Shown: positions 9,001 through 48,560 of the stretch, piece after piece
How the letters are laid out: each line of letters opens with the position of its first letter
How positions within the stretch are numbered: the first letter of the stretch is position 1
NCBI GenBank assembly: GCA_014904845.1
Contig: MU119424.1
Location: 1-64,000 of the forward strand
Source: Acephala macrosclerotiorum
Lineage: Eukaryota; Ascomycota; Leotiomycetes; Helotiales; Mollisiaceae
Reading direction: 5' to 3'
DNA length: 64,000 bases
Translations under genes and position numbers: made by a program
Notes under the pieces: generated by a model
The model's database searches: none
The model's input: only the letters and a program-made list of their open reading frames with translations
What the model was told of the DNA's origin: nothing

Positions 9001-10760
9001 AATCGTACTACGTACGATTTTTTAAATCAAATTATTCGTTTTACGTAAATAATACATTAAATCAAAAAAAACACGAAATTTTTATAATTTAAAAAAACGT
9101 TAATCGAATTACGAAAAAATATATATTTTTTAAAAAGTTTTCAATTTTTAAAATAATATATTAAATTTAAATTTTTAAACGATATATAAAACACTTTTTA
9201 AAATGTTTTATAATTTTTCGATACGAACGAAAAAATAAAACGTAAAAATTATAATTAATTTCGAGATTTTAATAATTTAATACTAAAAAATTTTTATATT
9301 AACGATTTTTTTATTATTATTTTTATTAGTCGCGAATATATAATAAATTTATTATTAATATCGATATAAAAATTATAATAATATAAAACTTTTAAATTAA
9401 ACGTAAAATTATTAATAATTCGATAAAAATAAAATAAATATTAAAATAAAATATATCGTATATTATTCTAATTAAAATTAATAATTATAATAATTCGAAT
9501 TTTAAAAAAAATACTAAAAAAACTAATTTAAAAATCGATTATTAATTTTCGTTTTTTTTTATTATTCGCGAATTTTTTTTCGTTTAAAAATAAATTATTT
9601 CTCGTATTAATTTTTTTATCGTTTTAGTTTATATTATTATAATATATAAATTTTAAAATTTAATATTAAATAAAATTGTTTTTAATTTTTAAAAAATTTA
9701 ATACAACGTTAAACTTATTATATATAGTTTTTTCTCGTATATAAAATATACGTTTTATTATATTTTTTTAAAATTAAAATTTTTTTTAATTTAAATAATA
9801 TAAAAAATAATTTTTTAATATTATTTATTATAAAATAAATTAATTTTAAAAAATTCGATAATTATTTTAAAAATTTGAAATCGTATTTAAATTAAATAAA
9901 ATTTATTTTATTTATAATTTTAACGTTCGTTCGTTTTTTAAATAAATATTTTATAATTATATTAAAAACGATTATAATATTTTTAATAATATTACTTTTA
10001 ATAATATTAGTATTTTAAATTTTAAAAATATTTATATACGTATATTATTTTTTTAATATAATAATATATTTAAATTTAAAAAATAAAAAATTATATAAAT
10101 TATATAATAATTTTATTTTTAATTTTATTTTAATAAAAATATTAAAAATTTAAATAAAAGTAAAACGATTTTATAAAGTTTATAAAGTAAAAAAAAAAAA
10201 AAAATTAAAAAAAAATATAATTTTTTTTTAAATTTTTTATTTTTTTTATTTATTTTTTATACTTTTTATTATTTTTTTTTAAAAGTTTTTACTTTTTTTT
10301 TTCGATATAATAAATAATCTCGTTTTACGAAAAATAGTTTATTATTTAAATTTTTATTTTTTAAATGAATTATTATTTTTTATAAATAATTTTTTATTTT
10401 TTTTAAATAATTATTTATTTTTTTATTTTATATTAATTTTATATAAAAAAATTTTTTTTTAAAGATTAAAATAATAAAAAATTTAAAAAATAAAAAAAAA
10501 ATATATTGTATTTTAATTAATATTTATTTTTAATTTTTAAAATAGTAATATATTTAAATTCGAAAATAGCGAATTATATAATTATATAATAAATCTACTT
10601 TTAATTTCTTTTTTTTTTTCTTTTTTTCTTTTTTTAAACTTTTTTTTATTTTATATTTTTATTTAAAATATAATATATTTTAATTTTATTTTTTTAATAA
10701 TCGTAATTTTATTTTCTTTTAAAATAATTATTTTTTTTTCTGTTTTTAATATAAAAATTT
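1..10760. repeat. RIP-mutated AT-rich block, no surviving genes
   Basis: Almost pure A/T sequence with long A and T runs, no open frame worth reporting, and no recognisable coding sequence on either strand. C and G are scarce, and most remaining C sits in CpG (tcg, acg), with CpA strongly depleted. This is what RIP leaves when it converts CpA to TpA in both strands of duplicated DNA, so the block is most likely a stack of dead transposons. Some stretches are slightly less extreme (about 2550-2900, 7615-7640, 8880-9070), but I could not find paired LTRs or inverted termini. A centromere-proximal or subtelomeric AT isochore would look the same. Confidence 0.85.
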
Positions 10761-11172
10761 ATCGTTAGAATTACTTTTTTAGTTAAGGTAATAGTGTTTT
10801 AACCCTCGAATTAAGGGGGGTTAAGTCGCTGTTTTTAGGGGTTAGAACACCAAAATTAAGCGAGCTAGACCACGTGCACGTCGGCCGTTCTTTGCCTAGA
10901 CCTCCGACCGCCAGAAAGGTTATATTCTAAAATAGCATTTCTTGTCACCTTTTAGAGACCTACCCACTAGGTAGCTATATATAAAGGGCCTCGTTCCCAT
11001 TGCCATAGCCGTCTCCTAGATAACTCCGTTGGCTTCCTTAACTCTATCGTTTTTATTACTTGAATTACACAAGGTGTTCTAGGGAGCATTATTCTGATGG
11101 TTATGACCACTCGCCTAATGTCTACATTAAGCGAGGGAAGTGACACAGGCGAAAACCTAGGTCCATATTCCT

Positions 11173-14704: not shown

Positions 14705-16879
14705 CTAGATAAGCGTTATAATTTCAGGCTTGCACCCATCAAACCAGTTCTTTTGAAGTTCCCATCTCCGGTTCCATTCCTCTTCACTCTCATGTTCCAT
14801 TTTCTCGCATCTATACCTGGCGAATTGAAACAGTCCCAATCGTGAGAATTTCTGTTTCTCCAAAGCGCGTAGTACTAGGCCTTTAGCTCCGTACGCGTCA
14901 TACTTTTCAGATCGGTCAGAAAGCGGAAGTGAAATGACAGATAAAAGATAAATGGGTGTAGGATCGCTGTTATCCATAGACACCTCCTCCAAACAGTCTT
15001 TCTCAAAAGAAGCATGAAGCGGACCTCCTACACCCTCGAGGTGGCATATTTTCAGCTTCTGGTCGTACACTAAATATGCAGGCCTCAGTAAACCCTTGAC
15101 CCAAAGGCGGCCGCAGATTACACCTCCGAATGGTGCCTCTTTATGTGCCAATTTGATGTTCCAGTGAAGAAGTTCAAGGTGTGACTCATGATGAACAAAC
15201 TCATTGGAGCTCAAATTGTCAAGGCTGACACTACCATTAACGGACGTCCACGACCAAGACGGGCCTTGAAAGGACTGGGGTCTCCGACGAGGTGTTAATA
15301 CTCTCCAGAGAATTGCCCAAGGGAAAGTAAATTCCCATAGTCCGCAAATGTAATTATCCGAAAAAGCTGAAGCAAATTTCTCTGCAATTCCCGATATTGC
15401 AAGACTTCTGTCCTCGGTATTCGACAATTTGCGTGAGGTGTACACGCCGATCAAGTTCTCCCAGGTCTCAATGAGACTCTTCTGAGCCGCAGAAATACTA
15501 GCACCCGAGCTTTCGGCTTTATAATCTAGCGCAAAAAGTTCTTGCTGAAGCCCCACAGCACTACGTCCGTCGTTGCTAACTTCTTGCCAGCCATCGGAGT
15601 ACATCCCTTCTAGCGAGTGATCTTTCGATTGGTGACAGAACCAACTAGTCTGGAAATTTCCAAACTCTAAAATCCTACTAGCTAGAAGGCGTTCTTGCAA
15701 CGGCCATGCCCGGTCGTCTAAAGGCTCTCTCGTGCCTTCCGGCAAAGGCCCCAATCTTGGTCGTTGATACAGGGTCATAATACCATGGTCGCCGCTTTCT
15801 AGATCCTTGAAAGGAAGCCCACATGATGGCTTTAAATGATGAAGTAACTCACGGGGCTTCAGAAAACCCTCTCTCACACTTCTTGCTCTGGAGGCGACGA
15901 GCACAAAAGACGCTTTCTCGTAGATCCGAGGCATCTGGGAAATTTCCTGAGCCATCTCATCAGGGTCGTCTTGCATGATACACAAAGCATCGACCCATAA
16001 GAAGCCAAACCCCAGCTCATTGGTTGTGACGATGGCATCTTGTAATGTGAATGGTAGGTCGGACATATGGATTTTGTCTGTCCAGCGATCAAGGGTTTTG
16101 GTGGTCGTCTTGATTGGCTGGTCACCTCCCCAACAATAGCTCAAAGCTACGTATGCTTCTTTTCGAAGACCACACGTTTCTTGAAGACCCAGGTGCCAAG
16201 TCTCTCCGTCCCGAGTTACGCTGATAAGCCTTTTGGGCAAATAAGATTGTTTCAGCTGAACACAATCTTTGTGATGTTCTTGACACTCTCTGAGCCATTT
16301 TCGATACAATTTAAAGCTTCTTTCAGATCCTGGTGTACGGTTTATCGGGCCGGAGATTCTCAGTCGCCGAGTAGTATCTTCTGGGCCTTTTTGAGGAGAT
16401 GTCAGTATATACTGCTCTAAAATATAATAAAAAGTAGCCAATACTTAGACAAAGAGAGTAGCTATAGAATATAGGATGGAGAGAAAGGAGTATATTTGAG
16501 TGAAATCTAACTTACACGCAGATAAAGATATATGCAAGCGGCTTCCTATTTGTCTCTCCATGTTCCTAGTTTCCGGACTCCACCACATAAAGGTTATTTC
16601 AGACAATCCATCCTTCACAATCGCGGCCAAGACAATATTCCGATAGAACTCTACTTTATATGGCGGGCTTTTAGCAACCAAGTACTGACATAACGTGCAC
16701 TCCTCATTCGCCGCCTCTATTATATCCTTGTATGTAGCTTCAAACACGACATTATACGACTGAATTCCAAATTCATCCATATGCCCGTCGTTAAAGACCG
16801 CTACCAGTCTTTGACAGTGCTTGCAAGTATGATATGACGGTGCGGAGCCTGCATATATCAATCTGTCTGATTTCTCCAT
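14705..16879 (-). CDS. HET-domain protein (heterokaryon incompatibility type), 700 aa
   Basis: Two exons on the minus strand: 16879..16516 and 16443..14705, with intron 16515..16444 opening GTAAGT and closing CTAAG. The acceptor choice keeps frame, because the nearby TTTTAG acceptor would create a stop. HET domain from about residue 219: YVALSYCWGG, then GFGFLWVDALCIMQDDPDE, then the third signature RAWPLQERLL. The N-terminal part carries two Cys pairs (CKHC near residue 20 and CTLCQ near residue 60), as is common in this family. HET proteins trigger programmed cell death when incompatible nuclei meet; the N-terminal HET module is related to TIR folds. The C-terminal half has no recognised domain and probably carries specificity. 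Length and motif order fit stand-alone HET proteins. The gene lies alone in an island between two RIP blocks. The partner or allele specificity cannot be inferred. Confidence 0.88.
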
Positions 16880-18420
16880 AGTGCCAAAGACAGTGAGGGC
16901 CTAGGATCTAATTTATAATCGCTTCTTCATATAGTTGAAGAGGAGACGAGAAAGGATAGGTTTGAGGGTGTGTGGGAAGGTTACGCGTCTAGAATTAATA
17001 GTTAGGGGGTAGAGGGAGTAGAGTGCTTTTGCACGTCTTGATTTGGTCAATTAGGCAGCAGCCGTTTCAACGCACAGACGATTAAGGCGAGACTTCTTGG
17101 CAAACGCCACACAGGCGCCGTCCTTATTTTATGGCGGGACGCTTCTGCCCCCCGTCTCTGCCCCCCCGTCTTTGCCTCTCACCTCTGTTCCTCACCTCCG
17201 TCCCAGCCCCAGATACTATATTTGAAATCACATCATTGATTAGCTAGCAGTTGCAGTCAATACACGTATTTCCGGGGGGTGGGGGGTAGTAGCATAGCGG
17301 GAATCGAATCTGGACCCAGCTCCTGCATGGGTAACGCTGATGCATCCATTCCACTGGCGCGTGAGAGCGCTAGCGTTGATAAAGGAGCAAATTCGGCCCC
17401 GTCGCGCTGGCGCAATCAATGCATTGTCGCATGACAGATACTGGCGTCAGAAAGGGGTAAATTTTGGCTCCATCACGCTAGCGCAGCCATTGCGCTGTCG
17501 CTTGATGGATGCTAGCGCTGGGAATGAAGCAATATTTGAGTAAAGGTAATCTTCATATTGGTTAAAGCTGCGGCTAAGCTTTCCAGCTTCTGCTGCTGTG
17601 TTACCCTAATATGCAAGCCTCATTTCGGAGCCTCGATAACAGCTTCCAATCCAACCACCTGCGTCCGCTCCCAAAATCTTGATTGGTAGTTTCTCTGCCA
17701 GTAAGAAATTTGGGGCGAGCCCTCCAAAATTTTGAGGCGATGCTCGTCGGTGAGCCCCTGTGGAGAAGGAACAACCCAACTACGCGAGGCTTCCCAAATC
17801 GTCGTCCGTGCATCCTTTTCACGTTTCTCTTTAGAACACCGACCTCCACATCTTTTCGAGCTTCATTTTCAAGTATATCGTGTGTCGCAGCTAGGGTCTG
17901 GCTATCCTGATTGATACATTCAGCTCCAAGGCCCAAGGTCCTTGATAGAGGTAATCATTTCTAGCACGTGGTGCGATCAGTGCCGCGCTGCGGCCCAGCT
18001 AGAAGTAAGAGAGAGTACGGAGCACCATAACAGCTAAAGTCACTCGCACAATTATGACACCTGCCAATGTTACTACCGTCTCCGAGTGGTTCTAAACAGA
18101 TTCCATAGTCCTCTACTGCATTAACATCTCTCGTCATTCTGTGTTTTCCTGCGATGGAAGCCGAAGGGAAGAATGAGCGTGCTGGATGTGATCGCTCTCG
18201 ATTGGGTTGGTACCAAACGGCCGAGGGAAGGGGTGTTAGAAAAGGATTAAAGAGGAAGACAGTCGAGTTAAGTAGCAGGGCTACTTTTATAAACTTTTAA
18301 AGCAGCGGCTGGGCCGCGCACGCACCTTGCCCGATGCGGCAGGCGCTAAACCCGGGATAGTAAACACTATACCTGAGATTACTATTATTACATTTTCTCG
18401 TAAAGTTTTATGTATAGCGT
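16880..18420. other. Intergenic region upstream of the HET gene, with a small tandem repeat
   Basis: Nothing convincingly coding was found. Bases 16880-17240 would hold the HET promoter; there is a C-rich run near 17150-17215. An imperfect ~72-bp repeat lies at 17340-17530. Between 17600 and 17940 both strands are open for about 60-110 codons, but no family is recognisable. At 18420 the sequence switches abruptly to the AT-rich RIP composition. Confidence 0.5.
17340..17530. repeat. Imperfect tandem repeat, period about 72 bp, two to three units
   Basis: The stretch aaaggagcaaattcggcccc, followed by gtcgcgctggcgcaatc, recurs about 72 bases later as aaaggggtaaattttggctc followed by catcacgctagcgcagcc. 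A partial third unit precedes them (actggcgcgtgagagcgctagcgttg). GCGCTAGCG-type short palindromes recur within it. Period 72 is divisible by three and one frame is open for 67 codons, but the frame starts and ends within the repeat and resembles no family. Confidence 0.55.
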
Positions 18421-20404
18421 TTTTTAAAATATTCTTCGAAATTATAAATATTTTATCGAATAAAATCGAAAAATAAAATGCGATTTTAAAATTTAAATAT
18501 AAAATAAAATTCGAATAAAAAGTAAATTCGAATATAAAGCGATTAATGTAAATAAGACTTTGAATAAATATAAATTAATATATATAATTAAAATATAAAA
18601 TTTGTAAAAACTATAAAAATTAAAAAAAAAAAAAATTTAAATTTAAATTTTTATTTAAAAATCGAAATTTAAAGTTTTTACGATTATAAAAAAAGTTTTT
18701 AAATCGTAAATTTTAATAAAAAAAGTAATAATATTAAGTACTAATAATAATAAAAAAAATAGAGAAAAATAAATCGAAATTTTAAAAAATGAAATACTAA
18801 TATTAGCGCGATTATATAATTCGTATAACGACAATTAATTCGATTTAATTAATAAATAAAATAACTCGAGAAATTAATTAAACGAAATAAAAACCAATTT
18901 AATTCGATCAATGGATAAAATATTTCGAAAAATCGATTAAACGAAAAAAAGAAATATAATAAAAATTAAATAAAAATATATGAAAATAAAAAACAAAAAA
19001 TCGATATAATAAAATAAGTATTAAATTTATCGAAAAAAAGTTTAAACGAAAATTAAAATTATATTTACGATATATATTAAATACTTTAAAACGAATTTAA
19101 AAATAATTTATATATTAATAGAAATTGAAATAATAAAAACTAAAAACTATTTTTATTAATATAAAACTCGTTATTATTGAAATAAATTAAATAGTTTATA
19201 ATATTTAAATTAATAGTTTTTTAAGAAACTTTTTATAAATAAACGTTATTAATTTTTTCTAAGAAAAAAACGAATTTTAATAATAAAATTAAAATCTCGA
19301 AAAAAATAAAAATAAATTTTTTTTTAAAAAATTAAAAAATTACAACGAATTCGATAATAAAACTATAAAAATTTATTAATATTTTATTTTTAATTCGATA
19401 CGATATAATCGATAACGTTTAAAATTATTATAAATACTTTTTAAAACTTTTTATTTTTATTTTAAAATAATTATAATTATTATTAAATCGAGAATAATAA
19501 TAATAAATATATAAAAAAATAATAATATATTTTTTATTTTTTATATTTTTTATTTAATTATTAAATTTTATCGAATCGATAATAATACGTAATCGAAAAT
19601 AAATTTAATTATAAAAATTTAATATAAAAATAAATAACGTATACGTTAATATAAAAAAAACTTAAAATAATTTATTTTAAACTAAAAATTAAATTTTAAA
19701 TTTAAATTTAATTTAAGTTTAAATTTAATTTAATTTTAATTTTAAACGAGATTTATTTACGATTTAAATATTATATTAAAAAATAAAAATAAAAATATTA
19801 TAAATATATAATAAATATAATAAAAAAAATTATTAAATTTATTTAATTATTTTTTTTTTATATTTATAAAAAGTATTTAATAATAATTACTTTTTTTTTA
19901 AATGTTTATAATATTATTTTATTTCGTATTTAAAATAAATACATTAAATAAATTTCAATTACAATATTATATTATTAATAAAAGTTTTAATTATCGAACG
20001 AATAAAAAAAAACGTTAATAAAAATATTCGATAAAAAAAAATTAAATAATAATAATAATATTTATTTATAAAATATAAAAATAATAATAATAATAATATA
20101 TTTATTAAATATCGATATTGTAATATATATTTATTAAATATAATTTTTACGTTTATTAAATATTTAAAATATTATTAAAAAATTTTATAATTTTATATAT
20201 TTAAAAAAAAAAAAAATTATTAATTAATTTTTCGAATCGAATATTACGTTTTTATAAACTTTTTTAAATTTAAAATTAAAAGAATTTTTTTTTGTAATTT
20301 TTTTTTTTTTTTTTAAATAAATTGAATTTTAATATATATTAATAAAAAAATAAAAAAAAAATAAAAAAATAAATATAATATATTTATTAAAATAAAATCG
20401 AAAT
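18421..20404. repeat. RIP-mutated AT-rich block, left of the LTR element
   Basis: Composition matches the first block: A/T runs, C almost only in CpG, no open frame of meaning. No terminal repeats could be paired within it. It ends directly at the 5-bp duplication that flanks the LTR element at 20405-20409, so the LTR element inserted into sequence that is itself mutated repeat DNA. Confidence 0.8.
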
Positions 20405-20409
20405 ATATT

Positions 20410-20637
20410 TATCGATATTACAAAAATACTATTATTCGAGCTCGATAATAAAACGCACGATAAGATCTTTGATTTTTAGTATACGTTGTTTATTTTAATA
20501 ATTAATTAGATTATCTCGAGTAAAAACTCGAGATTAAAGACTATATACTAGAAATAAGAATAAAACAATACTAATTAAATACGGTCTCAGATCGCACGTA
20601 AATATTACGTGAATATTTCGTAATATTTATTTCGATA
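20410..20637. repeat. Left LTR (228 bp)
   Basis: Aligns over its whole length with 22773-23000. Most differences are C/T or G/A transitions, as RIP produces. It contains the inverted repeat CTCGAG-taaaaa-CTCGAG-like motif near 20515-20532. It begins right after the ATATT duplication. No convincing primer-binding site was recognised immediately downstream of 20637. Confidence 0.85.
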
Positions 20638-22772
20638 CTAGTAATTCTTTTTTTATGAGAAAAAACGCAGATCGTACGAATAAAATTATTCTCTTTTTTT
20701 ACTATGTTTTACTAGTATATAAAACTCGCTAATTCTAAACAAATAAAATTATAAAAAAGTAGAAAGCACGTAATCGAACTCCGGAAATAGCGCTAACAAA
20801 CTAGCGTTATTTTTCGAAGCTCGTCGAAGTTTATAATTATCGAGTTTAAAAGAATTCTTTTATTCTCGATTTAAAATTTCAAGTATTTAAAACACTAAAA
20901 ACAACAAATATTCTTCGAACAAAAACATCCCTATTTTAAGCCTTATTTTAGACAGCGGCTTATACAAACGAACGAAAAATGAATCGAAAGCTAAATAATA
21001 GTACTTACTCTTATTAATCAAGCAAAGCAAGCATAGTACTCACTAGCGATTCATTGCCTAACAAGTCAAATAGTCGCAGTACTAAACACAAACGCCCTTC
21101 CATCTATCCTCTCATCTATCCCCTTATCCATCCCTTGGCACTGCTTTCTTTTATCGGTGTCGTGCCTAACCGATACCTTCTCGCTACCAGCACTTCTTAC
21201 CGTTGTAATGGAAACTGCTAGTGTCTCGAAGGTCTTCTCGATTTCCTCGGCCGAGCGGGGAAAATCGAGAACTCAAGATTATACTCTGTCTATTACTATG
21301 TTTTTCGCAGTTTTTACTCTTGTTGCTTTACAATGAGAGTATCGTAGTGCCGATTGCCTGTTGTAGCGAGTAAGTATTTTAATTCTGTATTTTACTTAAT
21401 TATTGTTTATACTAGTTCAAAGGCCGTTTTAAAAATTGTTTTAAATGGTTCTCATTTTACTATTAAAAGTTTTTATTCGAAAATTTATCGTTCGAAAATT
21501 GGTCGAAATAGTTGTTCGATTATTAGATTAAAAGTTATTAATACTATAATTCGTGGATTAATTTTAATTGAAATAAAGTACTCTAATAAAAACTTTATTT
21601 ATTAAGTCTCTTATTATACTTCTATAAAAAAAATCTACTTATTTTAATTTGAGCATTTATTTCTTTAATAGTCTATTTATAGTACTTTTTATTTTTAATA
21701 AACTTTTCGAGTTTTTTAATAATTGGTTATTTTTTTTTTAGTATTTATATTTTTCGTTTATATAAAAGATTTTTTAAGTCTCGAATAAAATCTTTTTTTA
21801 TAAAAAGTAATATTTCTTTGGTTTATTCTTTAAAAAAAATTTTAAAGTACTTTTATAATTTGTAGTTCGAATATTCGAAGTTCTTATAATTTATAATATT
21901 ATATATAATAAATTTATTAGTAGTTTTTTTATTTAAATTTGCTTTAAAATTAATTGTATTTCTTTATTTACTAAAATCGTATTCGTATTTATATATAAAT
22001 ATTTTAATAAAAGTAAATTAGTAATATAAAAATAAATATTAAAACAAATAATAAAATAAATAAAAAAATAGATATTAGAATAAATAATTAATTCAAAAGC
22101 GAATAAGCGATTTAAATATTCGATAAAGTTTTGCAAATAGTTTCGAGTAAATAGAAACGTTTATAAGTTATTTTAATGATCGATTGAAATAATCGTAAAA
22201 TAGTACTACTATATTATCGATCGATTAACTCGAAATTATAAAGAGTAAATAAGTTTAATTGGAATGAAAAATAAGAATAAATGTCGTAATTTGTAAAAGT
22301 TTTCGATTGATCGTAGAATAGTACTATCGATATACTAAAATCGATTAAATTCGAAATTATAGAGAGTAAGTAAATATAATCGAAATAAAAAAATAAAAAT
22401 AAGTATTGATTCGATGCGATACTTAAAATCAAATAATAAGTATAATAATTTAATTAGTTGTTTAATCGAGTTTTTCGTGAAATAATATTATTTTATGTGA
22501 TAAACGTAAATTTGAATTGATTATTTAAAAGTACGAATTTTTCTATAATTAATTTTTTCGAATCTTTAAAAATCGAAAAAACGCTAAAATCTCGTTTTTA
22601 CGAAAAAAATAATAAAATTCTCTCATAGTTCAATAATATTTAAAAGCGTTTTCTCGAAATTTTTTAGTATTTTTTATAGTCGATTTATTAATATTTTTAA
22701 TCTGCTATATTTAGTTTTTTTCAGTAGTATTTAATTAGTTTATATTCAATTGTAAAATTGAATATTAATTAA

Positions 22773-23000
22773 TATCGATATTATAAAAATACTATTATTC
22801 GAGTTCGATAATAAGACGCACAATAAAATCCTTGGTTTTTAATATGCGTTATTTATTTTAATGATTAATTCGATTATCTCGAGTAAAAACTCGAGATCAA
22901 AGACTATATACTAGAAATGAGAGTAAAATAATACTAGCTAAATGCGGTCTCGGACCGCACGTGAATATCACGTGAATATTCCGTGATATTTGTTTCGACA
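22773..23000. repeat. Right LTR (228 bp), better preserved copy
   Basis: Same length as the left copy and less mutated, so it still shows clear hairpins: TGCGGTC-tcg-GACCGCA at 22943-22959 and CACGTG-aatat-CACGTG at 22958-22974, overlapping each other by two bases. It ends TCGACA at 23000, followed by the ATATT duplication. No clear polypurine tract was seen just upstream. Confidence 0.85.
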
Positions 23001-23010
23001 ATATTATAAG

Positions 23011-23600
23011 TATATTAATATATTTTGAAGTAAAAATGAGATTATACTTTCGAATAATTCGAAAGCGATTATAAACGCTATTATTAACAATTGAAAATCG
23101 AAAATAATTATTAAATTCGATTAATATATTTCAAAGTAAAAATAAAAATACATTTTTTAATAATTCGAAAATATTATAAAATAATTGAAATTTAAAAAAA
23201 TAATTAATCGCGATTAGTATATTTCGAAGTAAAAATAAAAACTATTTTTTAATAGTTCGAAAATAAAATAATTAAAATTTAAAAATAAATAATTAATTGT
23301 AATTAATATATTTCAAAATAGAAATAAAAATAATTCGAAAATAATTCGAAAATAAAATAATTAAAATTCGAAAATAAATAATTAATTGTAATTAATATAT
23401 TTCGAAGTAAAAATAAAAATGCATTTTTTAATAGCTCGAAAATAAAATAATTAAAATTTAAAATTAAATAATTAATTACGATTAATATATTTCGAAGTAA
23501 AAATAAAAAAATATTTTTTAATAATTCGAAAATAAAACGCTCGAAATATCGAAAAATAAAAAATAAAAAATTCGAAAATAATTAATTATTAATTTTTTTA
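23011..23600. repeat. AT-rich satellite, six units of about 88-106 bp
   Basis: Units start with ttaatatattTcgaagtaaa or close variants at about 23015, 23121, 23214, 23303, 23392 and 23482, a spacing of 106, 93, 89, 89 and 90 bases. Each unit continues with a run like aataaaaa, then aattcgaaaataaaataatt, then aataattaatt. A more diverged unit appears near 23840. The array begins a few bases after the LTR element. Differences among units are mostly transitions, so RIP has acted on it. Confidence 0.8.
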
Positions 23601-26600
23601 ATCGACGAAAGTATTTTCATTTTATAATTTTTATATATTTATTTTTTATCGATTTAATATCGTAATTTTTAATTGTATTATATATCGAAGTTCTCGTAAT
23701 AGTAAAACAAATAACGAAGTATAAAATTAACGATAACGTGAAATAATATCGACGATAATTAATTATTAGTTTTTAAATTTATAATAAAATCGTTTTATTA
23801 TAATAAAAACGAAAAAAAAAGATTATAAATTAATTAATTTATTTCGTAGTAAAAATAAAAATATATTTATTAATAATATTCGAAAATCAAAAATTATTTT
23901 TATTTTTATTTTGATTTTATAATTAGTAAACGAAAATAATAATCGACGATAATTAATTATTAGTTTTTAAATTAGTAACGAGATTATTTCGTTATAATAA
24001 AAACAAAAAAAAATAAAAAGTTTATATTAATAGTAAAAAAAAGAGAATATAGTTTATATTAAAAATAAAATAAAAAATAAAATAAAAAATTTACAATAAT
24101 TAAACAATTTATAAATAGTTTTTTAGCGTTATTAAAAAGTATTTATTAACGTAAAATAATTACGTAAATATTACGATTAAAAGTCGAAATAAAAATAAAT
24201 AAATAAAGTGAATAATTAATAAATTTATTATTATAAAATAAATAATTAAATAACGAAATAAAAAATTAAATAAAAATATATATATTTAGCGAGTAATTAA
24301 TATAAATTATTATATATTATATCGTTATAATTAAAAAGCAATTTATTTAATATTATATAAAAATATAAAATACTCGAGTAATAGTATTTACTTTTATTTT
24401 ATACGATAAATATTTTAATAATTAAATATATAAAAAACTCGAAATTAAAATATTTAAAAAAATTTAAATATTAAAAATCGTTTTATTAACTTTTTATATT
24501 TATAGTATTAATATTTATAAAATTATATAATTTTTTCAAAGAAACGTTTAATAATATTTAAAAGTTTTCAAGTCTTCGATTAATAGCGTCGAATTAATTT
24601 ACGATTACTTTGTAATTGAATCGTATTAATAATATCGAGTATTGTAAATATAAATGGATTTATTTTTTAATTATTGTAATTTAATTTTTTTTATTGTAAA
24701 AACATTTTATTTTTACGATTTTTATAATTTTTACGATTTTAATTATTTTAAATTAATATATCGCGCATTATTTAAAATAATATAAAGATTAAAAAAGTTT
24801 TTATATTTAATAAATATTATATTTATCGTACGTCGCTATTATCGTCGCAATTTTTATTAAAATATATTAATATTATAAATATATCACTTAGTAAACTTTT
24901 TTAATTAAAACGCGTCGAGATTTAAAATTAAAAAAAATTTAAAACGCGAAATTTTAATAAATTAAATAACGATAAATTAAATAAAATATATTAATTAAAA
25001 AATTCGAACGAATCGATTAAAAGTTTTATTAAAAACTATGAAAAATTTTATAAAAATTAAATTAACGATTCGAATATATTTATTATATTCGAAGTTTTTC
25101 ATATTAAATATATAATAATATTTATATTTATAAAAGTCAAACGATAATAATAAAATTATACGAATAAACTCGATCGCTTTAATAAATAAATAAAAAAAAA
25201 AAAATATATATATATTTTAAGAATTTGAAAAATTTTAATTTAATAATTATAAAAGTAATTAAATTGATTTAATAAAAGTATTATATTTTATAATCGCTTT
25301 AAAATAAATATTTATTAAAGATTTTTTAGTTTTTTATAGAAATACTTTTACGAGATTTACGAAGTAAAATATATATCGAGTAAAAGAAAAAAAAAAGTCG
25401 TTCGCCAATTGGCTCGTTTGCGAGTCGGTAAACAGTTTTTTTCTTTTGAAATAAAAAAAACATTTTATCGTAATAATTAAATTTATTATAATTTTTTTAA
25501 TTTTTTTTAAATAAATTTTATTTACGATTATTTAATTTTTATATTTAATAATTTTTCAAATAAATTTCTATTATTTCTTTTTAAACTTTAATAAATAAAT
25601 TAATAATTTTATTATAATTTTTTATAATTAAAATACTATAAATTAATTTTTTATATTTTTTAATAATAATAATTAATATTAATATTATTTGTTTTTTTAT
25701 TACGCGATTTAATATTTTTTTTTATTAATATAATTATCGATTTTATTTTATTAAAATTTCGTTTTAATACGTATTAATTTATTTCGAAATTTATATTTAT
25801 ATTATTTAATTTTTATTTTATTATTAAAAAAAATCTTTTTTAAATAATTTTAATAAAATTTTTTAAATTTATTATTTTATTAAAACGTTTTTTTAATATT
25901 TAACGATTTTTTTAAATTGCTTTTTTTATATATTTTTTTTATAAATTATTATAATTTTTTTTTTTTTTTTTTTTCGAAATATTTTTTAAAATTTTTTAAA
26001 TTTATTAATTTCGTATCGATTTATAATAATATATAATTTAATTTTATATTTATAATCGAATTTATTTATATTATAATTTTTTTTTATTAATACGTTTATA
26101 TTATTAATAATTAAATAATTATTAAATAATTAATTTATTATTTTTTTATCAATATTTTGTTTTTATTATAAATTCGTAATTTGTATTAATTAAAATCGTC
26201 GATAATTATTTAATCGTATATTTTCAATATTATAATAATTCGTTTTACGATTTTATTATTATTTATTAAACGATATATATTATATATATATAATTCGTTT
26301 AAAAGTTTAATAAATATTATTTTTTTAATTCGTTAATTAAAAAAATATATAATAATATTTTTTTTAATATAAATAAATATTTTAAAACGTTTTTTTTATT
26401 TCGTTATTAATTCGAATATATTATAAATTAAATATATTTTAATTTTTTTTTTTATAATTTATTTAATATAAATACGATCGATTTTTATATTAAAATAATT
26501 ATTATTATTTTTTCGAATTCGATTTATAATAAAATTTTATATTATTATTTTTATATTTATATAAATATTTTTTCGATATTAATATTTTTAAAAAATAATT

Positions 26601-28015
26601 TTTTTTTTTGGAATTTTTTTAATAATTTTTTTAATTTTAATATTTTTTTTTTATATTTAATTATTATAATTTATACGTTAAAATAAATTTAATTTTATAA
26701 TTTTTTTAACGATTTAAAAAAATATATAATTAATTCGTAATCGTATTTTTTATTGTAATAAAATACGTATCGTAATAATTAATCGATATATATTATTTCG
26801 TAATATATACGTTTATATTTTTTATATTTTTTATTTTTATAATATAATTCAAAGTAATATTTTTAATAATTCGAATAAAATTTTAATTTATTTTTTTCGT
26901 TTAATATAATTAATTTTTTTTATTCGTTAAAAAATTTAATATATTTTTTTAATTTTTTTTTTTTTTAAAAAAATAAAAAAATATTATTAAATTTTTTTTT
27001 TTTTATAAAATATTTTAATTATTTTAAATTCGTATTTATAATTTTTTATAATTTTTTTTTTACGTATTATTTATTAGAAAATTTAAAAAAAAAAAAATTT
27101 AAAATTCGATTTTTTTAATTAAAATTTTTTTTATTTTTTTCGTTTTATCGATAAATATTACTTCGAATTTTTTTTTCGAATTTTTATTTTTATTTTTAAA
27201 ATTTTCGTTTATTATATAATTTTTTTATATATAATTATAATAATTATCGATTTTAAAAATAAAACGAATTTTACGATTTATAATATATTAATTTAAAAAC
27301 GTTATTTTTAACGTAAAATATAAAAAAAACTCGTAAATTTTATTTTTTATTTTTTTATTTTTATAAATTAATAATATTTATTTATAATTATTTTTTATAA
27401 TTTTAATAATTTATTTTATTATTTAAATAATAATAATAATATATTTTTTTTATTACTCGTTATTTATAATTATATAATTTTACGTAATAATTAAATTTAT
27501 ATTAATATTTTTTCGATTATTTTAATTAATTTTTTATTTTATTAAATATTATTAAATTATATCGTTTAAATTTTCAATTTTATTAAAATTTTTATAATTT
27601 TTCGAATATTTTTTAAAACGATATTATAAATTTATTATCGTATATTATTAAAATCGATATTTAACGTATTTTTTATAAATATTATATTTTTAATAATTCG
27701 AATTATAAAGTTTTTTATAGTTTTTTTTTTAAATCGTAATATTTTTCGTTTATAATTAAAATAATTCGTATTATATAAATAATATGTAATTTAATAATAA
27801 TTAATATTAGTTTTTAAAACGAACGACCAATTAAATTTTTTTTTTTTTTTTTTATAAAATTTATTATTACTAATAAAAAACGAATTTAATTAATTATAAA
27901 TCGATTTAAAACTTATTTTTAAATAATCGAAGAAATTTCGTCGACGTTTTTATTCCGTACTTACGACGAGTTCTAAAAAAGATTTTTTTAACGTCGTACT
28001 CTATCCTTTAAATTA
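23601..28015. repeat. RIP-mutated AT-rich block, right of the LTR element
   Basis: Strongly A/T with isolated CpG and no genes. A short GC-richer patch at about 25397-25437 (gttcgccaattggctcgttt, then gcgagtcggtaaacag) stands out but folds into no tRNA and encodes nothing. The block fades into normal sequence around 28015, about 325 bases before the stop codon of the gasdermin-like gene. Confidence 0.8.
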
Positions 28016-28339: not shown

Positions 28340-29182
28340 TCAAACTGAGAGATCAAAACGCCTCGAATGAACCTCTTCTTCTTCTTGAGGATCCAATTCC
28401 ATTCGTGTAATAACATCCTCTTCTTCATCGCTGCTAGAGTCGCTATCGCCGAAGGTCAGCTTTGACCGATTCATCAGGGGACCCTTCAGCATAGGACCCT
28501 TCACCTCTCTCCAGGAAGTCGTGAGCACGTGATATGCCACTGCAAAAATCTCTTCCTGAACCACACTCATTTGCAGTGTCTGGGTCGTCCCTTTGGATAC
28601 GGATGTGCTCGCATGGGGGTCAACCAGTCCTGCCGCATCGCCCACAATTGCGGAGATTGGAACAGCGAGCTTGAATCCGCCAGTGCGGCGTTGCCTTTGA
28701 CTCTGGGTCCAGATTGTTCCTGTAGTGGTGTAGAATCCTACAACGAAGTATGCTTTGCCAAATGTTGTTTTCCTAAGCAAAGCCCGCACTTCTGATGCAT
28801 AGTCCTCATTGGTCATCAATTTGTCGAAGATTTTCTCTGGGTTCTTCAAGGTATACCGTTTGACCGTCTGGCTCTGCATGGAAAGTCCCTCTTCGGTTCT
28901 CGAAGTCAGATCGATATTGAATAGAGAGGCGAGCCCCGCACGTGCTGCCCCTTCTCCGATGTTCTCGATGAAGTTCGTTCGATTCTCATACGTCAGAGGC
29001 TCTTGGAGAATAGTGGGATGAATATCCGATGTGTTGTGGGTTGGTTCGTCCTCGGAGAGAGGTTCTTCAGGAACGTATTTGTCCAATGGATAGAGCGGAT
29101 CTTTGACCACTCGACCCATCATTTTGCTGACTTCCGTCGATGGGCAAGTCTGCTCGAGAAAGTGGTATCTACCACCGACCAT
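28340..29182 (-). CDS. Fungal gasdermin-like pore-forming protein (HET-Q1/RCD-1 type), 280 aa
   Basis: A single exon on the minus strand. I start it at the ATG at 29182 because the N-terminus then reads as RYHFLEQ, GRVVKDPLYPLDKYVP, a typical opening for fungal gasdermin-like proteins; the longer open frame upstream has no ATG at its start. The middle has the hydrophobic strand pattern FGKAYFVVGFYTTTGTIWT and later EEIFAVAYHVLTTSW, which I read as pore-domain strands. The last ~45 residues are a very acidic Ser/Asp/Glu tail with Arg residues at its base and near its end, like the short C-terminal inhibitory tails removed in HET-Q1 activation. Family function (established): after proteolytic removal of the tail the N-terminal part inserts in the plasma membrane and kills the cell. 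Its neighbour, head to head 593 bases away, is a CHAT-protease gene, the expected activator. Assignment is by eye; a profile search would settle it. Confidence 0.8.
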   Translation of the reverse strand: MVGGRYHFLEQTCPSTEVSKMMGRVVKDPLYPLDKYVPEEPLSEDEPTHNTSDIHPTILQEPLTYENRTNFIENIGEGAARAGLASLFNIDLTSRTEEGLSMQSQTVKRYTLKNPEKIFDKLMTNEDYASEVRALLRKTTFGKAYFVVGFYTTTGTIWTQSQRQRRTGGFKLAVPISAIVGDAAGLVDPHASTSVSKGTTQTLQMSVVQEEIFAVAYHVLTTSWREVKGPMLKGPLMNRSKLTFGDSDSSSDEEEDVITRMELDPQEEEEVHSRRFDLSV

Positions 29183-29775
29183 CCTATGAATGCAGCTAAG
29201 ATTAGCCCGCGGCTTCCTCAATGCGGTCTCCGAGTATATACGTACGTATCGATAGAAGGTCTTTACCTTTTGCTGATTTATCTTTAGCATTGAACAGGAA
29301 CGGAAAGTCAAGAAAATTATTACGGGCTGCGGGTGGTTTAAAAATTAATTTGGCAAGTTATTGTAGTGGAGGCCTGCGAAGCGCATTCTGTGGCTGAGAT
29401 TGATTTGCCTGGAGCTGAAACTCAAATTGGCGTTTGCTACACAACTGCAATCGTGATTGAGGTAAATTGACGCTGAGGCTTGGATTCAATGCCTCGAAAC
29501 AAGACTAAATTTGGCTCCTGTAACACGGGACGGGAACCCTTACCGCTGGGGCTGAAAGCTGAACCTCCAAACGTGATAAGGCTTTCAGGGGGCTGCAGAC
29601 CCCGTATTTGCTTCTTCACGTTAACCTTTTTCCCTATCCAGAATCCTATCGCAACACATTATTTCAGAATCTCATACGCGCAACATTCATTTTCAAGTCT
29701 TAATTCAATGAATCACTACTGAGCAACGTCATTCCTTCTCGATTCGCTGGATAACGATCACTGTCTCAATTCATC
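29183..29775. promoter_or_regulatory. Shared divergent promoter region of the gasdermin and CHAT genes
   Basis: This 593-base stretch separates two start codons that point away from each other. No gene is visible; short frames occur on both strands without family resemblance. Such a head-to-head arrangement allows the executioner and its protease to be co-expressed. No clear TATA box or repeated operator stands out. Confidence 0.55.
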
Positions 29776-32700
29776 ATGGCCGCTTCTCGGCCAGAGCATT
29801 GCATCATTGCTATCCACAACTCAAAGTCACCAGTAAAAGATAGCAATGGCAGTCTTTTATGGTCAGTCAAAGTCGTATTTGAAGGGAAAATACGACGTCG
29901 ACAAGTCCACGATCCTGTAAGGATAATCGGTTCTTCATGCTCTGGCAGTCATCTCACAATTTCTCGCTTGATATGCTCCAATGCTCGCAGAGTTTGATGC
30001 AGAAATAATCTTTCTTTCGTCTTCTGGAACTTTAACAACACATCACTAATTTTGGGTCTCAGTGGAATGCAACTTTGAAAAAGGATTGCCGGTGGTATGT
30101 TGAGGATTTTGCTGCGAAGGAACCGTACGCCACAACTCGGGCGCGAAATACCTCGAATCATCTGAAGACATATGCTTCATGTTTACAACAAGACCTGAAG
30201 CTAGAGAAAATTATCGTAACCTTACCAAGAGGGACAACCGGAAGAAGAGCAATTGTCATTGAAGTGTATGACACTCGCAAGGTCGATAATATATATCAAC
30301 TCCACTGGGAGCTTCTTGAAAACCCCGAACTGTGGGAGAGAAAGAATGTGACAGTCCAGATTCGGAGGTCGGTTCAACCAGTAGAACACTACAGGGAAGG
30401 TCCCATGGACATCAAATTGTGGCAGCCAACTCCAGAAGCTCCACCGTCGTTCAATATCTTGCTCGTGGTCGCACGAGATACAACAGACAATAACGAGCTC
30501 GATCCAACATTTGCCTCAAAAATTCTCTCAGACCTCCAACAAACATCTCACATCCATGATTGTTCCACGAGGATTAACCTAGAAATCGTCAGGCCTGGGA
30601 CGGTAGACGCTCTAGAGGAGCACCTCCAGAGATCCAGACTGATGCGAGGGGACGAGTTTTTCCATCTGATTCACTTCGACCTACATGGTACAATAGATGC
30701 CAAAAAGCGCTCAGCATTCCTCAGATTCAACGAAAGGAAAAGAGATGGAACTGTTTCGGATGAGCTGATCAACGTGGAGCCTGAAAAACTCGGGGAAATT
30801 CTTAGTGATTATGGCATCACTATGGTCGTCCTCAACGCTTGCAAATCAGCGAACACAGACTATGGAGAGGATGGCAATGTTGCTAAGACACTGACCACTT
30901 GGGGAGTGAAAAACATTCTCGCCATGTCGTTCGAAGTCTTGGAGAGTAGTGCAAAGATTTTCCTGGCCTCCTTTTATCAGCACTTGATTTCTGAAGGGCA
31001 GGACTTTTCCGCCTCTGCATCTCTGGCAAGGGATGCGATTCGTCGTGATTCGGCCAGGACTTCCAGATTCAACTTCAGCCTTCCGATTGCGGACTGGTTT
31101 GTGCCTGTTGTTTATTGTTGTAGCTCTCCTATGCACATAACGTCCCAGAAAGGTCGTTGCGGATTAACCTCTGCACCCAGGGATGGCATCGTCCCTCATC
31201 CGGACAAGAATGCTCTCAAGGATGCATGCTTCTTCGGACGTGACTTCGATATTCTTCGATTCGAGAAAAGACTACTTTCTAAACCTCAGACCACCAGCAA
31301 TGATCCGAGCGTCCATAGAAGGAAGGAGGTGCCTGCTGTTTGGCTTTGTGGCCCTCCAGGCGTCGGGAAGTCCACCTTGCTTCAACAGATCTGCTCTCTT
31401 TGGAAAAGCACGTCATTTATAGAGGTCAGCCTCTACATTGATTTTGCGGCCCATCCTATGCGAAATATGGATGATGTGATCACGGAGCTTCTCGTTCAAT
31501 TACCGAGTCCTCCAGTAGGAGTTCAGTATTGCCATATGGAGACAGGAGAAGAGCTCGTTTTGAGACTCATCCGAGATCGCCGAGTCTGCTTCATACTTGA
31601 TGGTTTACATGTGGTAAATTGGGCCGGAAATGAAGGATATCGTCATTCTACCCTTTTATCTGAGATCAATTGCTTCCTCGAGAAGGTTGTCCAGGCACAA
31701 GAAGGTTCCACAAACAAAATGGGTTGTTGTTTCTTCATTTTCTCGGGTCGGTCGAATCATAAGCTCAGAAAATTGGACTACTGCGGAACTGCCACGGTTT
31801 TTGAATTGAGTGGTCTGCAACCTCGATCCTGCGAAGCCCTCTTGCAATCGATAATTCCGGCGGCAAAGCCCAGCCTCCATTACTATGAACTTTTCGCCAG
31901 TCTATTCCAAGGCATACCTGAGGCCCTGCTTCACTTTGGCAACTTAACTCGGATATCCGAATGTGCTGTACAAGAGATGTATGAGAAGCTTTTGTACGGC
32001 GATGTAGAGAACAGTCTAGATTCGAAAGCGAACGTTCGCCGACACCGACTTTTCCAAGAGTTGGAAGAAAGGTTTTTCACTCTTTCCGAGGAAGAATTTT
32101 CGGTGATACTTACGCTTGGCTGGTACTGGCACGAAGGTCCCGTCATAAAATCTCTCCATGACTCGTTACTTATATCGAGAGTCTGTAGCGATGACTTTGA
32201 ACTGGATAACGCTCTAGAACTCGTCTCAAACTGGGGCTACATCCGAATGAGCCGTACTCCAATTGGTCGCGAAAGAGACCCAATCATCAGTTGGATCCAT
32301 CCTCTATTCACAATCTACTGCAGAATGGTTGCCTGCGCCTTGTTTCGGTCCAAACCGGATCCCTCCACCACTAGTTGGCCATTGTTCTGGAAAGAAGTTG
32401 TCTATGACTTTGCTTGGCGTGCGACTTCCTGGATATTTCCCAAGACTAGACTGCGACTAGCTAGTCAATTACTTGCTTCCGCTCTTGGTGTGTGTCAGTA
32501 TAGATACTTCAATTCTCGCTACTACACCTTTGCAACCTGGTTTTTGAGCGACATAGACGCCACTTCCGATCGCGACCTTCCAGTTTTTACCGCCCCTACA
32601 AAAGTCTCAGACAGTTATGCAGTCCAAGCATGGGGCAGACGAGGTCTACCCAACATTTTGTTCGCGAGTAAGATCTGCCTTGGCCAAGGGCCAATTGCAG

Positions 32701-33770
32701 TCCCACTCAGTCGTTGGCCAATCTGCTCTATGTTATTCTATGTGCATGGCTTTCGGAAAGTCTGTTCCATCGCAGAAGTAACCGTCATGGCGAAGTGCTT
32801 CGAAGAATTATTATACAAGATTGAGATGCAGGAAGGAATGGCTCTTGACGGTGCAGAACTCCATTTCGCTCTCGGTCTTGCATGCGCTCTTGCGACTATC
32901 CACGGCAAATACCTTCCTTCGTTAGCCCGCGTACACCTGAAGTTCCTGGACTTTGGGATGAAGATGATCAAAATATCAGAATCTAGATATGGGCCTAAGC
33001 CAGATGTGCAGAAGGGGCTTTTGTTCAACCTCAAAGCAGAAGTTCTAATCAAGGACGGCAAGGAAGGAGAAGCACATGAAGCATGGCAGACCGGAATCAA
33101 ATACGGACGTAGTTCACTGAAGACTAACGTGGACAATTATGATAAGCTGCAACGCCAGGGCCTGATATACGATCCGGAAGAAGTAAGGGACACCCTTGGC
33201 TCGATGAATCAATTCTATGATAATCTTGAGAATTCTTGGGATATACTAGCCCAGCGCCTCCGCGGCGAGATAAATTTGACCACAAAATACCCCGAGGACT
33301 TGAAAAAGCTCGAGAAGCTCCACGGCGATATTTATGCCGACAATCCTGAACACCTGGTTCATAAATTGAGTAAAATCGACAAGAAATATGACGCCCTATA
33401 TCAGGTCTCTACGTCGGGACCAGGAGCAGGAAACAGCTGGTTAGCTATCGCCCACCATCAAGATTTCATGAGGGATGCTATCCGAAGACAAGATTTAGAT
33501 CAAGCTCGCACTCATCGAAACGCGATCGTGGACCTTCTTGAGGATGACCCAATATACGCCGCTATGACGAGACATCGACGCTCGGTGGGTGAAGTTTTTG
33601 GCCCCCTCCCTAAAGCTATGATGAGGAAGATTATGTTGCAGATGGTTCCGAGTGAAGGTGAATACGAGATAGAAATGAGGGAGCTTTTTCTGGAAGTGAT
33701 GGATGCAGATCTGTATGAAGCTCAATATGAGCGGGAGCTAGCAAATTTGGTTGTAGAAGACTTAGATTAG
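29776..33770 (+). CDS. CHAT-protease / P-loop NTPase (NLR-like) protein, 1282 aa, likely gasdermin activator
   Basis: Exons 29776..29916 and 30063..33770; the intron (29917..30062) opens GTAAGG and closes CTCAG after a CTAAT branch site and joins phase 0 to phase 0. N-terminal ~120 residues: strand-rich segment and the WYVEDF signature that often precedes fungal CHAT domains. CHAT protease: HFDLHG with His255 and VVLNACKSA with Cys307 as the catalytic pair of this caspase-like family. P-loop NTPase (NACHT/STAND type): GPPGVGKST at 477-485 and VCFILDG with Asp560. From about 700 the protein is helical with TPR-like stretches (near 930-1040) but without obvious WD40 or ankyrin repeats; it is the likely sensor. 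Known for the family: CHAT proteases cleave gasdermins in bacteria and are found beside gasdermin genes in fungi. The adjacent gasdermin supports that role here. Oddity: directly after the stop, another frame stays open to 33979 with an acidic sequence, so the C-terminus may be frameshifted. Confidence 0.9.
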
Positions 33771-46407: not shown

Positions 46408-47742
46408 TTATAGTCCCGACAACTCCTCATACACCTCTGCAAAAGATGGTCGATCTCTCACGACTGGGTTAGAACATCTCCAATGTAGTGCATTCAAACC
46501 TTCGATGGAACCTGCATCCTTCTCACTCAGAACATCGTCCGCATCAACTCTTCTCACAACCAACCCCAAAAGATCCTCAATCAGATGGCCGAAGGCAAAG
46601 ACCTCCATCCTCTCAAGCATCTCTGCCTTCTCGTGATCGGTACGATAAATCGTGGCTGCACCGAAGTCCCCCAAAAGTGCATGTCCAGTGTTGTCGATCA
46701 AGATATTATGAGCATACAAATCCCCATGCGCAATACCTCTCTCATGAAGGTGAGTAGCAGCAGCAGCAATCCCAAGCAAAATACTCTTACAATTCTCAAC
46801 CGAGAAAGCCGTCTCCGGATGAAAAGAGTCTCTCGTACAAGTATCCAGCGTTGGCGGTAATCCTAAATTCTTATAATGCGGAGGAATCAATTCCAACACC
46901 AGTCCGCGCTTCTCAGGATGACCATGAATCTTCCCAATTGGATCGATGAGATTGGGATGTTGACCAGCAGTGATGCAAGCATTCATCTCATCAGCAGGCG
47001 AGCCATCACTCGTCACCTCTCCTTTGAAGAGCTTGATTGCGACGTGTTTCTCGTCTGCTTGTCGCTTCCATGTTCCTTTCGAGATGATTCCTGATGCGCC
47101 TTCGCCGAGGAGTTGATGAACGGCGAGTTCGGACCACGTGATGTCGTCGAGGACTGGGTTGTGTTCGAAAGATGAGGCGCAGGGATTTCCGGCGAAGGAC
47201 AGGAATGAGAGTTCTGGGAGCTCGAAAAGCCAGTGTGGGATGCTGGTCAATTGATTCGAGGACAATCTGAGGAGACCCAGTTTGCGGCAGTGAGACATCT
47301 CCGCTGGCAGCGAGGTGAGACGGTTGCCGGCCAACATGCATTTCTGAAGTCGATGACACTGTCCAATGCTCTTTGGTAGCTCTGCAATCTCATTGTTGGT
47401 GAGGATCAGCCATCTCAGCTTTCGAGGAAATGCTCCTTCAGGGATCGTAGTCATGTGATTGCCCTTGAAAGCAATCATCTCGAGTGAGCGACATTGTGCC
47501 AGCTCTTTTGGGAAGACAGTGAATTTACAATCGGAGAAAAAAGCTACTTTGAGCTTGTGAAGGCGGCTGATATCTTTGGGTAGAGATGAGAGAGGGTTGC
47601 CGGACAAGTCGAGGATCTCAAGCGTGTCGAAAAGTTCAAGGATTTCGCGTGGGAATTCTGTGAGGCCAGATGGGATCTTGACACGCTTCGCTCCCTTATA
47701 CTGGCCGGACTTGAGTCCTTCGAGGGTTTGAGGAGCGGACAT
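46408..47742 (-). CDS. Leucine-rich-repeat protein kinase, 444 aa
   Basis: Single exon; start taken at 47742 (MSAPQTLEGLKSGQ), because the 52 residues encoded upstream of it are basic, Cys-containing and unlike the family. Residues 18-215 form eight or so leucine-rich repeats of the short ribonuclease-inhibitor-like kind (LEILDLSGNPLSSLPKDI; LGLLRLSSNQLTSIPHWL). Residues about 225-444 form a kinase: glycine loop LLGEGASGII, VAIKLFKG with the ATP-binding Lys, catalytic loop HGDLYAHNIL (HGD in place of HRD), and GDFGAA. This LRR-kinase arrangement with HGDLYAHN occurs in plants, oomycetes and bacteria as well as some fungi, so horizontal transfer deserves a test. No signal peptide or membrane helix: cytosolic. 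Substrates unknown. Its neighbour in the opposite direction is an F-box gene. Confidence 0.9.
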   Translation of the reverse strand: MSAPQTLEGLKSGQYKGAKRVKIPSGLTEFPREILELFDTLEILDLSGNPLSSLPKDISRLHKLKVAFFSDCKFTVFPKELAQCRSLEMIAFKGNHMTTIPEGAFPRKLRWLILTNNEIAELPKSIGQCHRLQKCMLAGNRLTSLPAEMSHCRKLGLLRLSSNQLTSIPHWLFELPELSFLSFAGNPCASSFEHNPVLDDITWSELAVHQLLGEGASGIISKGTWKRQADEKHVAIKLFKGEVTSDGSPADEMNACITAGQHPNLIDPIGKIHGHPEKRGLVLELIPPHYKNLGLPPTLDTCTRDSFHPETAFSVENCKSILLGIAAAATHLHERGIAHGDLYAHNILIDNTGHALLGDFGAATIYRTDHEKAEMLERMEVFAFGHLIEDLLGLVVRRVDADDVLSEKDAGSIEGLNALHWRCSNPVVRDRPSFAEVYEELSGL

Positions 47743-48560
47743 CTTCAATTGACGTCTGAGAGGCCTGAAAAGGGGGTGTCTGCCCAATGAGTTAGCTTTG
47801 CGTAAAGCACAGAGAGGACACATTGACTTGCTCATGCGATATGTTCTCTTTCTCAACGACTCGGATCTGATCACAGAAAGCTCACACGAGCTCTTCACAA
47901 CACACTCATCGCGACTGAAATTCTCTGCAAAACGGCATAAGACCGAGGAATGTGTTCAATTTCGTCCAAAAATAGAACTCAACGTTTGTAATCTCCTCTT
48001 ATCTCAGCACGTTACCGGGAAAATAGTTAATCCGGCCCGAACAAACATTACGACGTCGACTGTGCTTCACCATCGTTCAACATTGCAGACTTTTGCTCTA
48101 GTTCAATCCCGAGACTCGCTCTAGCGTCGTCTTTTCGTCAGAATCCCGTTCAACGCCAGTTTGATTGTACTTTTCAAGCGGTGACAGCTCCAGCCTACAT
48201 CGTGACGAGCGATCACGACTTTTCTTCAGCAGTCTTCCAGCTAGGACGCCCGAACGCTAGTTCGGCACTGCAGCTGTTGATCCCCCTTGAGTCATCATCT
48301 CTGGCTCATATTTACTTCTTGGTGCATGCTTGTAACGCTACAAAACTCAAAGAGTCGCAAATTTTTTGAAACTTCTTCCACGGCCAAGCTGGTTCTGTCT
48401 CTTGTCCATGCGAAACTCACACTGCGCTCGAACTTCATCACTTTCGCCACTTACCATTACATTTGAAGTCATATATCTCTATTGATAGGTTAGAGATCAT
48501 CACCGACGTGAAAGCTACTCGCAACAAATCTTAATCACGTGCGGCTCAACTATCGTTGCC
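47743..48560. promoter_or_regulatory. Divergent upstream region of the LRR-kinase and F-box genes
   Basis: About 820 bases between two diverging start codons. Open frames here (for example 47798-48124) have no family resemblance. No clear regulatory motif was recognised. Confidence 0.45.

Follow-up and report, generated by a model that had tools for sequence, protein, structure and literature searches.

Background

Gasdermin genes of fungi are reported to lie in clusters with protease genes in about 80% of cases, and clusters in which the neighbour is an NLR that bears a CHAT protease domain have been published as 'contracted pyroptotic-like pathways' (PMC10197012; see also PMC12881547). NLR genes with an N-terminal CHAT domain that adjoin gasdermin genes are likewise described (PMC9815663), a Podospora gasdermin is activated by a TPR-bearing CHAT protease (PMC12881547), and a CHAT gene is one of the two idiomorphs of hetB in Aspergillus fumigatus (PMC11138114). 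Other fungal gasdermins are controlled differently: HET-Q1 sheds about 5 kDa from its C-terminus, its counterpart HET-Q2 being a subtilisin-like serine protease encoded by the other idiomorph of the same locus, and RCD-1 requires two allelic variants and no cleavage (PMC12881547). What fungal NLRs sense is listed as an open question in the same source. In this study we analyse a stretch of 64,000 nucleotides from the fungus Acephala macrosclerotiorum (assembly GCA_014904845.1, contig MU119424.1, positions 1 to 64,000; hereafter the window), which holds a gasdermin-like gene (gene A, 280 amino acids) head-to-head with a gene for a CHAT-bearing receptor (gene B, 1,282 amino acids), at 593 bases from ATG to ATG.

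From the folds, the key residues, the pairing and the acidic tail described below, we infer with a probability of roughly 80% that the two genes of this locus form a pyroptosis-like unit of cell death, in which a triggered receptor would release gasdermin pores through CHAT cleavage. Since clusters of gasdermin and CHAT-NLR genes have already been published, the pair is a further example of a described class.

Predicted proteins and gene models

Gene A probably has the gasdermin N-terminal pore-forming fold, as judged from a predicted model of moderate confidence (mean predicted local distance difference test, pLDDT, of 58.7). When this model is compared with known structures, gasdermins, as identified by entry title, fill the first 19 rows of Foldseek and the first 24 of VIA; Neurospora RCD-1 is the top match and TM-scores are low. 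At the sequence level neither gene A nor its family of 34 database proteins has a credible Pfam match, and the hits to Pertussis_S1 (E 0.079 and 0.075) and VirArc_Nuclease (E 0.21) were set aside as below the cut-off. Profile A1 listed no RCD-1 chain among PDB sequences at E <= 10, and PDB sequence searches with two paralogues of gene A gave no match. This points to fungal gasdermin subfamilies that escape the sequence libraries searched here. The only relative with a species name in the first search was a protein of Mollisiaceae sp. DMI_Dod_QoI (169 amino acids, 85% identity over 60% of gene A), and relatives are found in several genera.

In gene B a CHAT protease is joined in one chain with an NLR-type NTPase/winged-helix switch, after which comes a helical C-terminus; the protease activity is predicted. 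Three Pfam domains score over the cut-off (CHAT 1.2e-12, NPHP3_N 7.2e-8, NACHT 5.2e-7). We aligned 50 sequences, 49 of them taken from the 120 CHAT homologues listed (188 were found), and here the presumed catalytic His255 and Cys307 are invariant, as are the Walker A lysine and His793, while the Walker B aspartate is present in 48. The last of these invariant residues belongs to an IHPLF motif, which presumably occupies the place of the MHD motif of NLRs. Residues 350-800 of the model align with the plant resistosome 6j6i_C over 341 residues, in a comparison where ORC/Cdc6 rows tie in Z, and Foldseek ranks 1-8 are NLRs and CED-4. The C-terminus is mostly helical according to AlphaFold2 (AF2) and has no repeat match in Pfam; its last 58 residues have a pLDDT below 50.

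The gene B frame spans 30075-33770 with 1,231 open codons. A predicted 146-bp intron places the ATG upstream of it, and was preferred because of its consensus donor and a fit by eye to the N-termini of the homologues P0022, P0023 and P0031; alternative splice choices also leave the frame open. Reading past the gene B stop was rejected, as an E(D/E)LD motif likewise closes the proteins of all six close relatives (P0016-P0021). The ten homologues that follow (P0022-P0031) are longer, at 1,575-1,776 amino acids, which indicates that gene B belongs to a clade with a shorter C-terminus. For gene A, we decided against an N-terminal extension beyond the ATG at 29182, which with a TTG start would give up to 323 amino acids, since in the alignment 22 of 32 database homologues begin at or beside the equivalent methionine. 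Of the remainder, seven start downstream at M(M)xRVV, two are fragments and one is called 11 residues longer.

What the first-pass annotation of this DNA had observed on the two proteins is borne out, and its interpretation is supported in part. The open reading frames and the spliced gene B model (His255, Cys307, P-loop at 477) reproduce its 280-residue protein, its 593-base gap and its catalytic and P-loop residues. The acidic C-terminal tail of gene A is present as well, and so is the CHAT, NTPase and helical C-terminus architecture of gene B, through Pfam (CHAT and NACHT), structure matches and the invariant His and Cys. It had called gene A gasdermin-like and had named a predicted structure as a test; this structure was computed and, in a model of moderate confidence, shows a gasdermin fold. 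Profile searches, which it had also proposed, recovered the domains of gene B over the cut-off and returned no credible Pfam match for gene A.

Pairing of gasdermin-like and CHAT genes

The genome amounts to 69.7 Mb in 778 contigs, of which the window contig is numbered C223 below. When the whole genome is searched with gene A and three of its paralogues, with counts that are lower bounds, at least five gasdermin-like places appear at E <= 1e-3 (C223, C245, C214, C249 and C20). In agreement with the association of fungal gasdermins with CHAT genes put forward in the first-pass annotation, four of the five adjoin a CHAT gene and the fifth (C20) adjoins a probable CHAT remnant. There the neighbour is a frame of 160 amino acids with TPR matches under the Pfam cut-off and without a Pfam CHAT match; its end resembles that of a CHAT domain by eye, and C20 is a probable decayed pair. 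Weak hits lie on C143 (E 0.064) and C3 (E 0.96).

Starting from the CHAT side gives a broader count. The genome has 15 CHAT matches, and a sixteenth locus (C207) was recognised by its similarity to gene B. Around these we ran a profile search that covered the window, two or three stretches of about 10 kb each around C84, C33, C159, C47, C184, C249, C113, C52 and C357, and one such stretch each at C245, the two C214 loci, C207 and C48. We report first-pass values, since the iterated scores of six seed loci include themselves; the first-pass profile itself contains C245 and C214. The search adds C207 (2.6e-21), a second C214 place (6.1e-17) and C84 (3.1e-6), and confirms C249 (1.1e-8). A clear gasdermin-like neighbour is thereby found at 7 of 16 CHAT loci, six head-to-head and one (C249) tail-to-tail. 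The candidate at C33 is tentative (17.7 bits after iteration) and was left uncounted, and no gasdermin-like neighbour was detected in the fetched stretches of the other eight.

The paired receptors have two layouts. The receptors of the window, C207 and the second C214 locus carry CHAT at the N-terminus, and those of C245 (with TPR over the cut-off), the first C214 locus, C84 and apparently C249 carry it at the C-terminus; no TPR match was found at the first C214 locus or C84. The CHAT frames at C207 and the second C214 locus look interrupted, where introns are possible. The two divergent pairs on C214 lie about 12 kb apart (L014, C214:63800-73700; L036, C214:78000-87999). L036 also carries a frame of 1,264 amino acids (2575-6369, +) with a P-loop GTPase-like stretch by eye, which meets the gasdermin of the second pair tail-to-tail with a 17-base overlap and is a possible third component of that pair.

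In other species, 5 of the 34 gasdermin relatives seem to sit on one contig with a CHAT homologue (among the 120 listed of 188), as judged from equal lengths of their longest contigs; contigs of 10 kb or more carry 15 of the 34. The apparent shared contigs measure 12.8, 13.5 and 15.9 kb, 152 kb in Lojkania enalia and 2.3 Mb in Patellaria atrata. For the latter two the species name agrees between gasdermin and CHAT homologue; these matches speak to the contig and not to gene distances or strands within it, for which reason the Patellaria case is weak. The distances between gasdermins correlate with those between CHAT proteins across six pairs, one of them the window pair (r = 0.99, 1/720 permutations), also after removal of a close relative (r = 0.94, 1/120 permutations). 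As a pattern in sequence distances this fits joint inheritance of the two genes and does not prove contact between their products.

The acidic tail of gene A

Gene A has a net charge of 0 up to residue 245 and of -11 over residues 246-280. We aligned 39 proteins: gene A, six others encoded in the same genome and 32 of the 34 that make up the database family (two fragments, P0006 and P0009, are omitted here and from A2). The segment after residue 245 is net negative in 39/39 (median -16, range -24 to -4), although these do not amount to 39 independent cases, since the boundary was set after viewing the sequences and the proteins were collected by similarity to gene A. The part up to residue 245 has a median net charge of +4, and the segment 219-245 is positive in 37 of 39 (median +6). 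As a control we counted proteins of which the last 40 residues have a net charge of -8 or lower. There were 27 among the 34 gasdermin-family proteins, compared with 6 among the 120 CHAT homologues listed; among 95 long frames of the genome, a set that includes gasdermins and duplicate loci, there were 15. Within the tail, Phe276 is invariant in the 16 rows of A1 and not in the 33 rows of A2. Residues 224-255 have a pLDDT below 50.

Being short, charged and of low model confidence, the tail is the natural candidate for an inhibitory segment, and we infer that its inhibition may be electrostatic. We know of no description of such acidic-tail autoinhibition for animal or bacterial gasdermins. It might even be argued that in CHAT-paired fungal gasdermins at large a disordered acidic tail neutralises the basic linker and the membrane-binding face, and that CHAT receptors of both layouts cut at the basic/acidic boundary. 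This generalisation is speculative and we hold it to be doubtful; if true, the genome would hold a set of exchangeable sensors that all act on a single electrostatic lock.

Proposed mechanism and alternatives

In the mechanism that we favour, the gene A gasdermin would be kept inactive by its short acidic tail. The helical C-terminus of gene B may sense a trigger, which could be a non-self signal that follows the fusion of hyphae, a virus or a microbe, upon which the NTPase switch would oligomerise and gather the CHAT domains. Cleavage of gene A by these domains would then fall within the disordered linker that joins its core to its tail, and the core, once released, would form membrane pores and kill the cell. 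This gasdermin could also be activated without cleavage, by a differing allelic variant, with the CHAT receptor acting on another substrate or having only a regulatory role. RCD-1, the closest fold match of gene A, is itself cleavage-independent (PMC12881547). Nonetheless we regard this as unlikely for gene A: all 39 aligned proteins carry an acidic tail, as expected of a removable inhibitor, the protease His and Cys are invariant in 50/50 sequences, and fungal gasdermin genes reportedly cluster with protease genes. That gene A and gene B are adjacent by chance, or merely share a promoter, is very improbable. Linkage by itself is no proof of interaction, and the distances between pairs could track species history, but of the five gasdermin-like places four lie next to a CHAT gene and one next to a probable CHAT remnant, which argues against chance, and the pairing spans two receptor layouts and both head-to-head and tail-to-tail arrangements. 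A chance or artefactual origin of the pair itself was rejected in view of the 1,231-codon frame, the homologue families and the conserved pairing.

Receptor-triggered cleavage is compatible with a role of the pair as an active heterokaryon-incompatibility locus, where the same machinery would respond to an allelic non-self trigger instead of acting as an antimicrobial sensor. HET-Q1 and RCD-1 control incompatibility (PMC12881547), and the CHAT idiomorph of hetB points the same way (PMC11138114). Two HET-domain genes also flank the pair within the window. HET genes are, however, numerous in the genomes of such fungi, and the occurrence of relatives in several genera would also suit a role in general defence. 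We therefore see incompatibility as possible, yet tentative.

Features and surroundings of the pair

Coordinates are collected in Table 1. The intergenic region is presumably a promoter common to both genes. The HET-domain genes lie at a distance, at 14708-16441 (-) and 59426-61093 (+), with Pfam values of 3.5e-26 and 2.4e-28. Two parts of the window are extremely AT-rich (1-11000 and 18001-28000, with a GC content per kb of 4-14% and 8-27%, respectively) and are probably mutated repeats; the second almost reaches the 3' end of gene A. A further open reading frame at 46411-47898 (-) combines leucine-rich repeats with a protein-kinase domain.

Table 1. Features of the gene pair (window positions) and of the probable decayed pair on C20 (positions within L037)
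Feature	Position	Strand	Basis
Gene A, gasdermin-like, 280 amino acids, predicted single exon	28340..29182	-	Open reading frame from ATG; 34-protein family; gasdermin fold match
Gene A residues 219-245, linker before tail	28448..28528	-	Net positive in 37/39 aligned proteins
Gene A residues 246-280, acidic C-terminal tail, proposed inhibitory segment	28343..28447	-	Net -11
Divergent intergenic region, 593 bp	29183..29775	.	Coordinates from both gene models
Gene B predicted exon 1, 47 codons, with ATG	29776..29916	+	Agrees by eye with homologue N-termini
Gene B predicted intron, 146 bp, GTAAGG...TCTCAG	29917..30062	+	Consensus ends; prediction
Gene B exon 2	30063..33770	+	Open reading frame and splice model; full protein 1,282 amino acids
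CHAT caspase-like protease domain	30426..31142	+	Gene B
His255 codon, presumed catalytic	30684..30686	+	His in 50/50 aligned
Cys307 codon, presumed catalytic	30840..30842	+	Cys in 50/50 aligned
NLR-type nucleotide-binding and winged-helix switch (NACHT/NB-ARC-like)	31215..32567	+	
Walker A GPPGVGKST	31350..31376	+	Walker A Lys in 50/50
Winged-helix His793, IHPLF motif	32298..32300	+	His in 50/50
Helical C-terminal region, proposed sensor	32568..33767	+	AF2 secondary structure
Probable decayed pair on C20, L037 (C20:144500-153500)	3934-4440 and 4683-5162	+ and -	Truncated gasdermin-like frame beside TPR-like fragment

Comparison with known systems

The first-pass annotation had presented the pair as undescribed and as an inflammasome plus caspase in a single polypeptide. 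Keyword literature searches indeed found no published account of the window locus, whereas the kind of pair is already published and the novelty of the single-chain design was overstated (PMC10197012). Its appeal to HET-Q1 and HET-Q2 holds as regards control by a protease and is inexact as regards neighbouring genes, since these two are idiomorphs. Being compact, with two open frames and accompanied by several paralogous pairs elsewhere in the genome, the locus is a good system to study NLR sensing, the choice of CHAT cut sites and the restraint of pores by the short tails of microbial gasdermins.

The nearest relatives in layout are the fungal gasdermin/CHAT-NLR clusters (PMC10197012, PMC12881547, PMC9815663), which likewise place a gasdermin gene beside a receptor with an N-terminal CHAT domain in one chain; in contrast to these, gene A has no sequence match in Pfam or PDB. 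HET-Q1/HET-Q2 of Podospora anserina shares the short C-terminal gasdermin tail and the control by a protease (by cleavage, as proposed for the window), but it employs a subtilisin-like enzyme from the alternative idiomorph instead of a CHAT protease from an adjacent gene. RCD-1 of Neurospora crassa is the best structural match of gene A, yet it has no detectable sequence similarity to it and acts free of cleavage through two allelic variants. In comparison with bacterial gasdermins and their caspase-like proteases, the window protease is fused to an NLR switch, and the gasdermin tail is acidic and poorly predicted. Finally, where SAVED-CHAT (8tl0) has a SAVED sensor, gene B has a NACHT/NB-ARC-like switch and a helical C-terminus.
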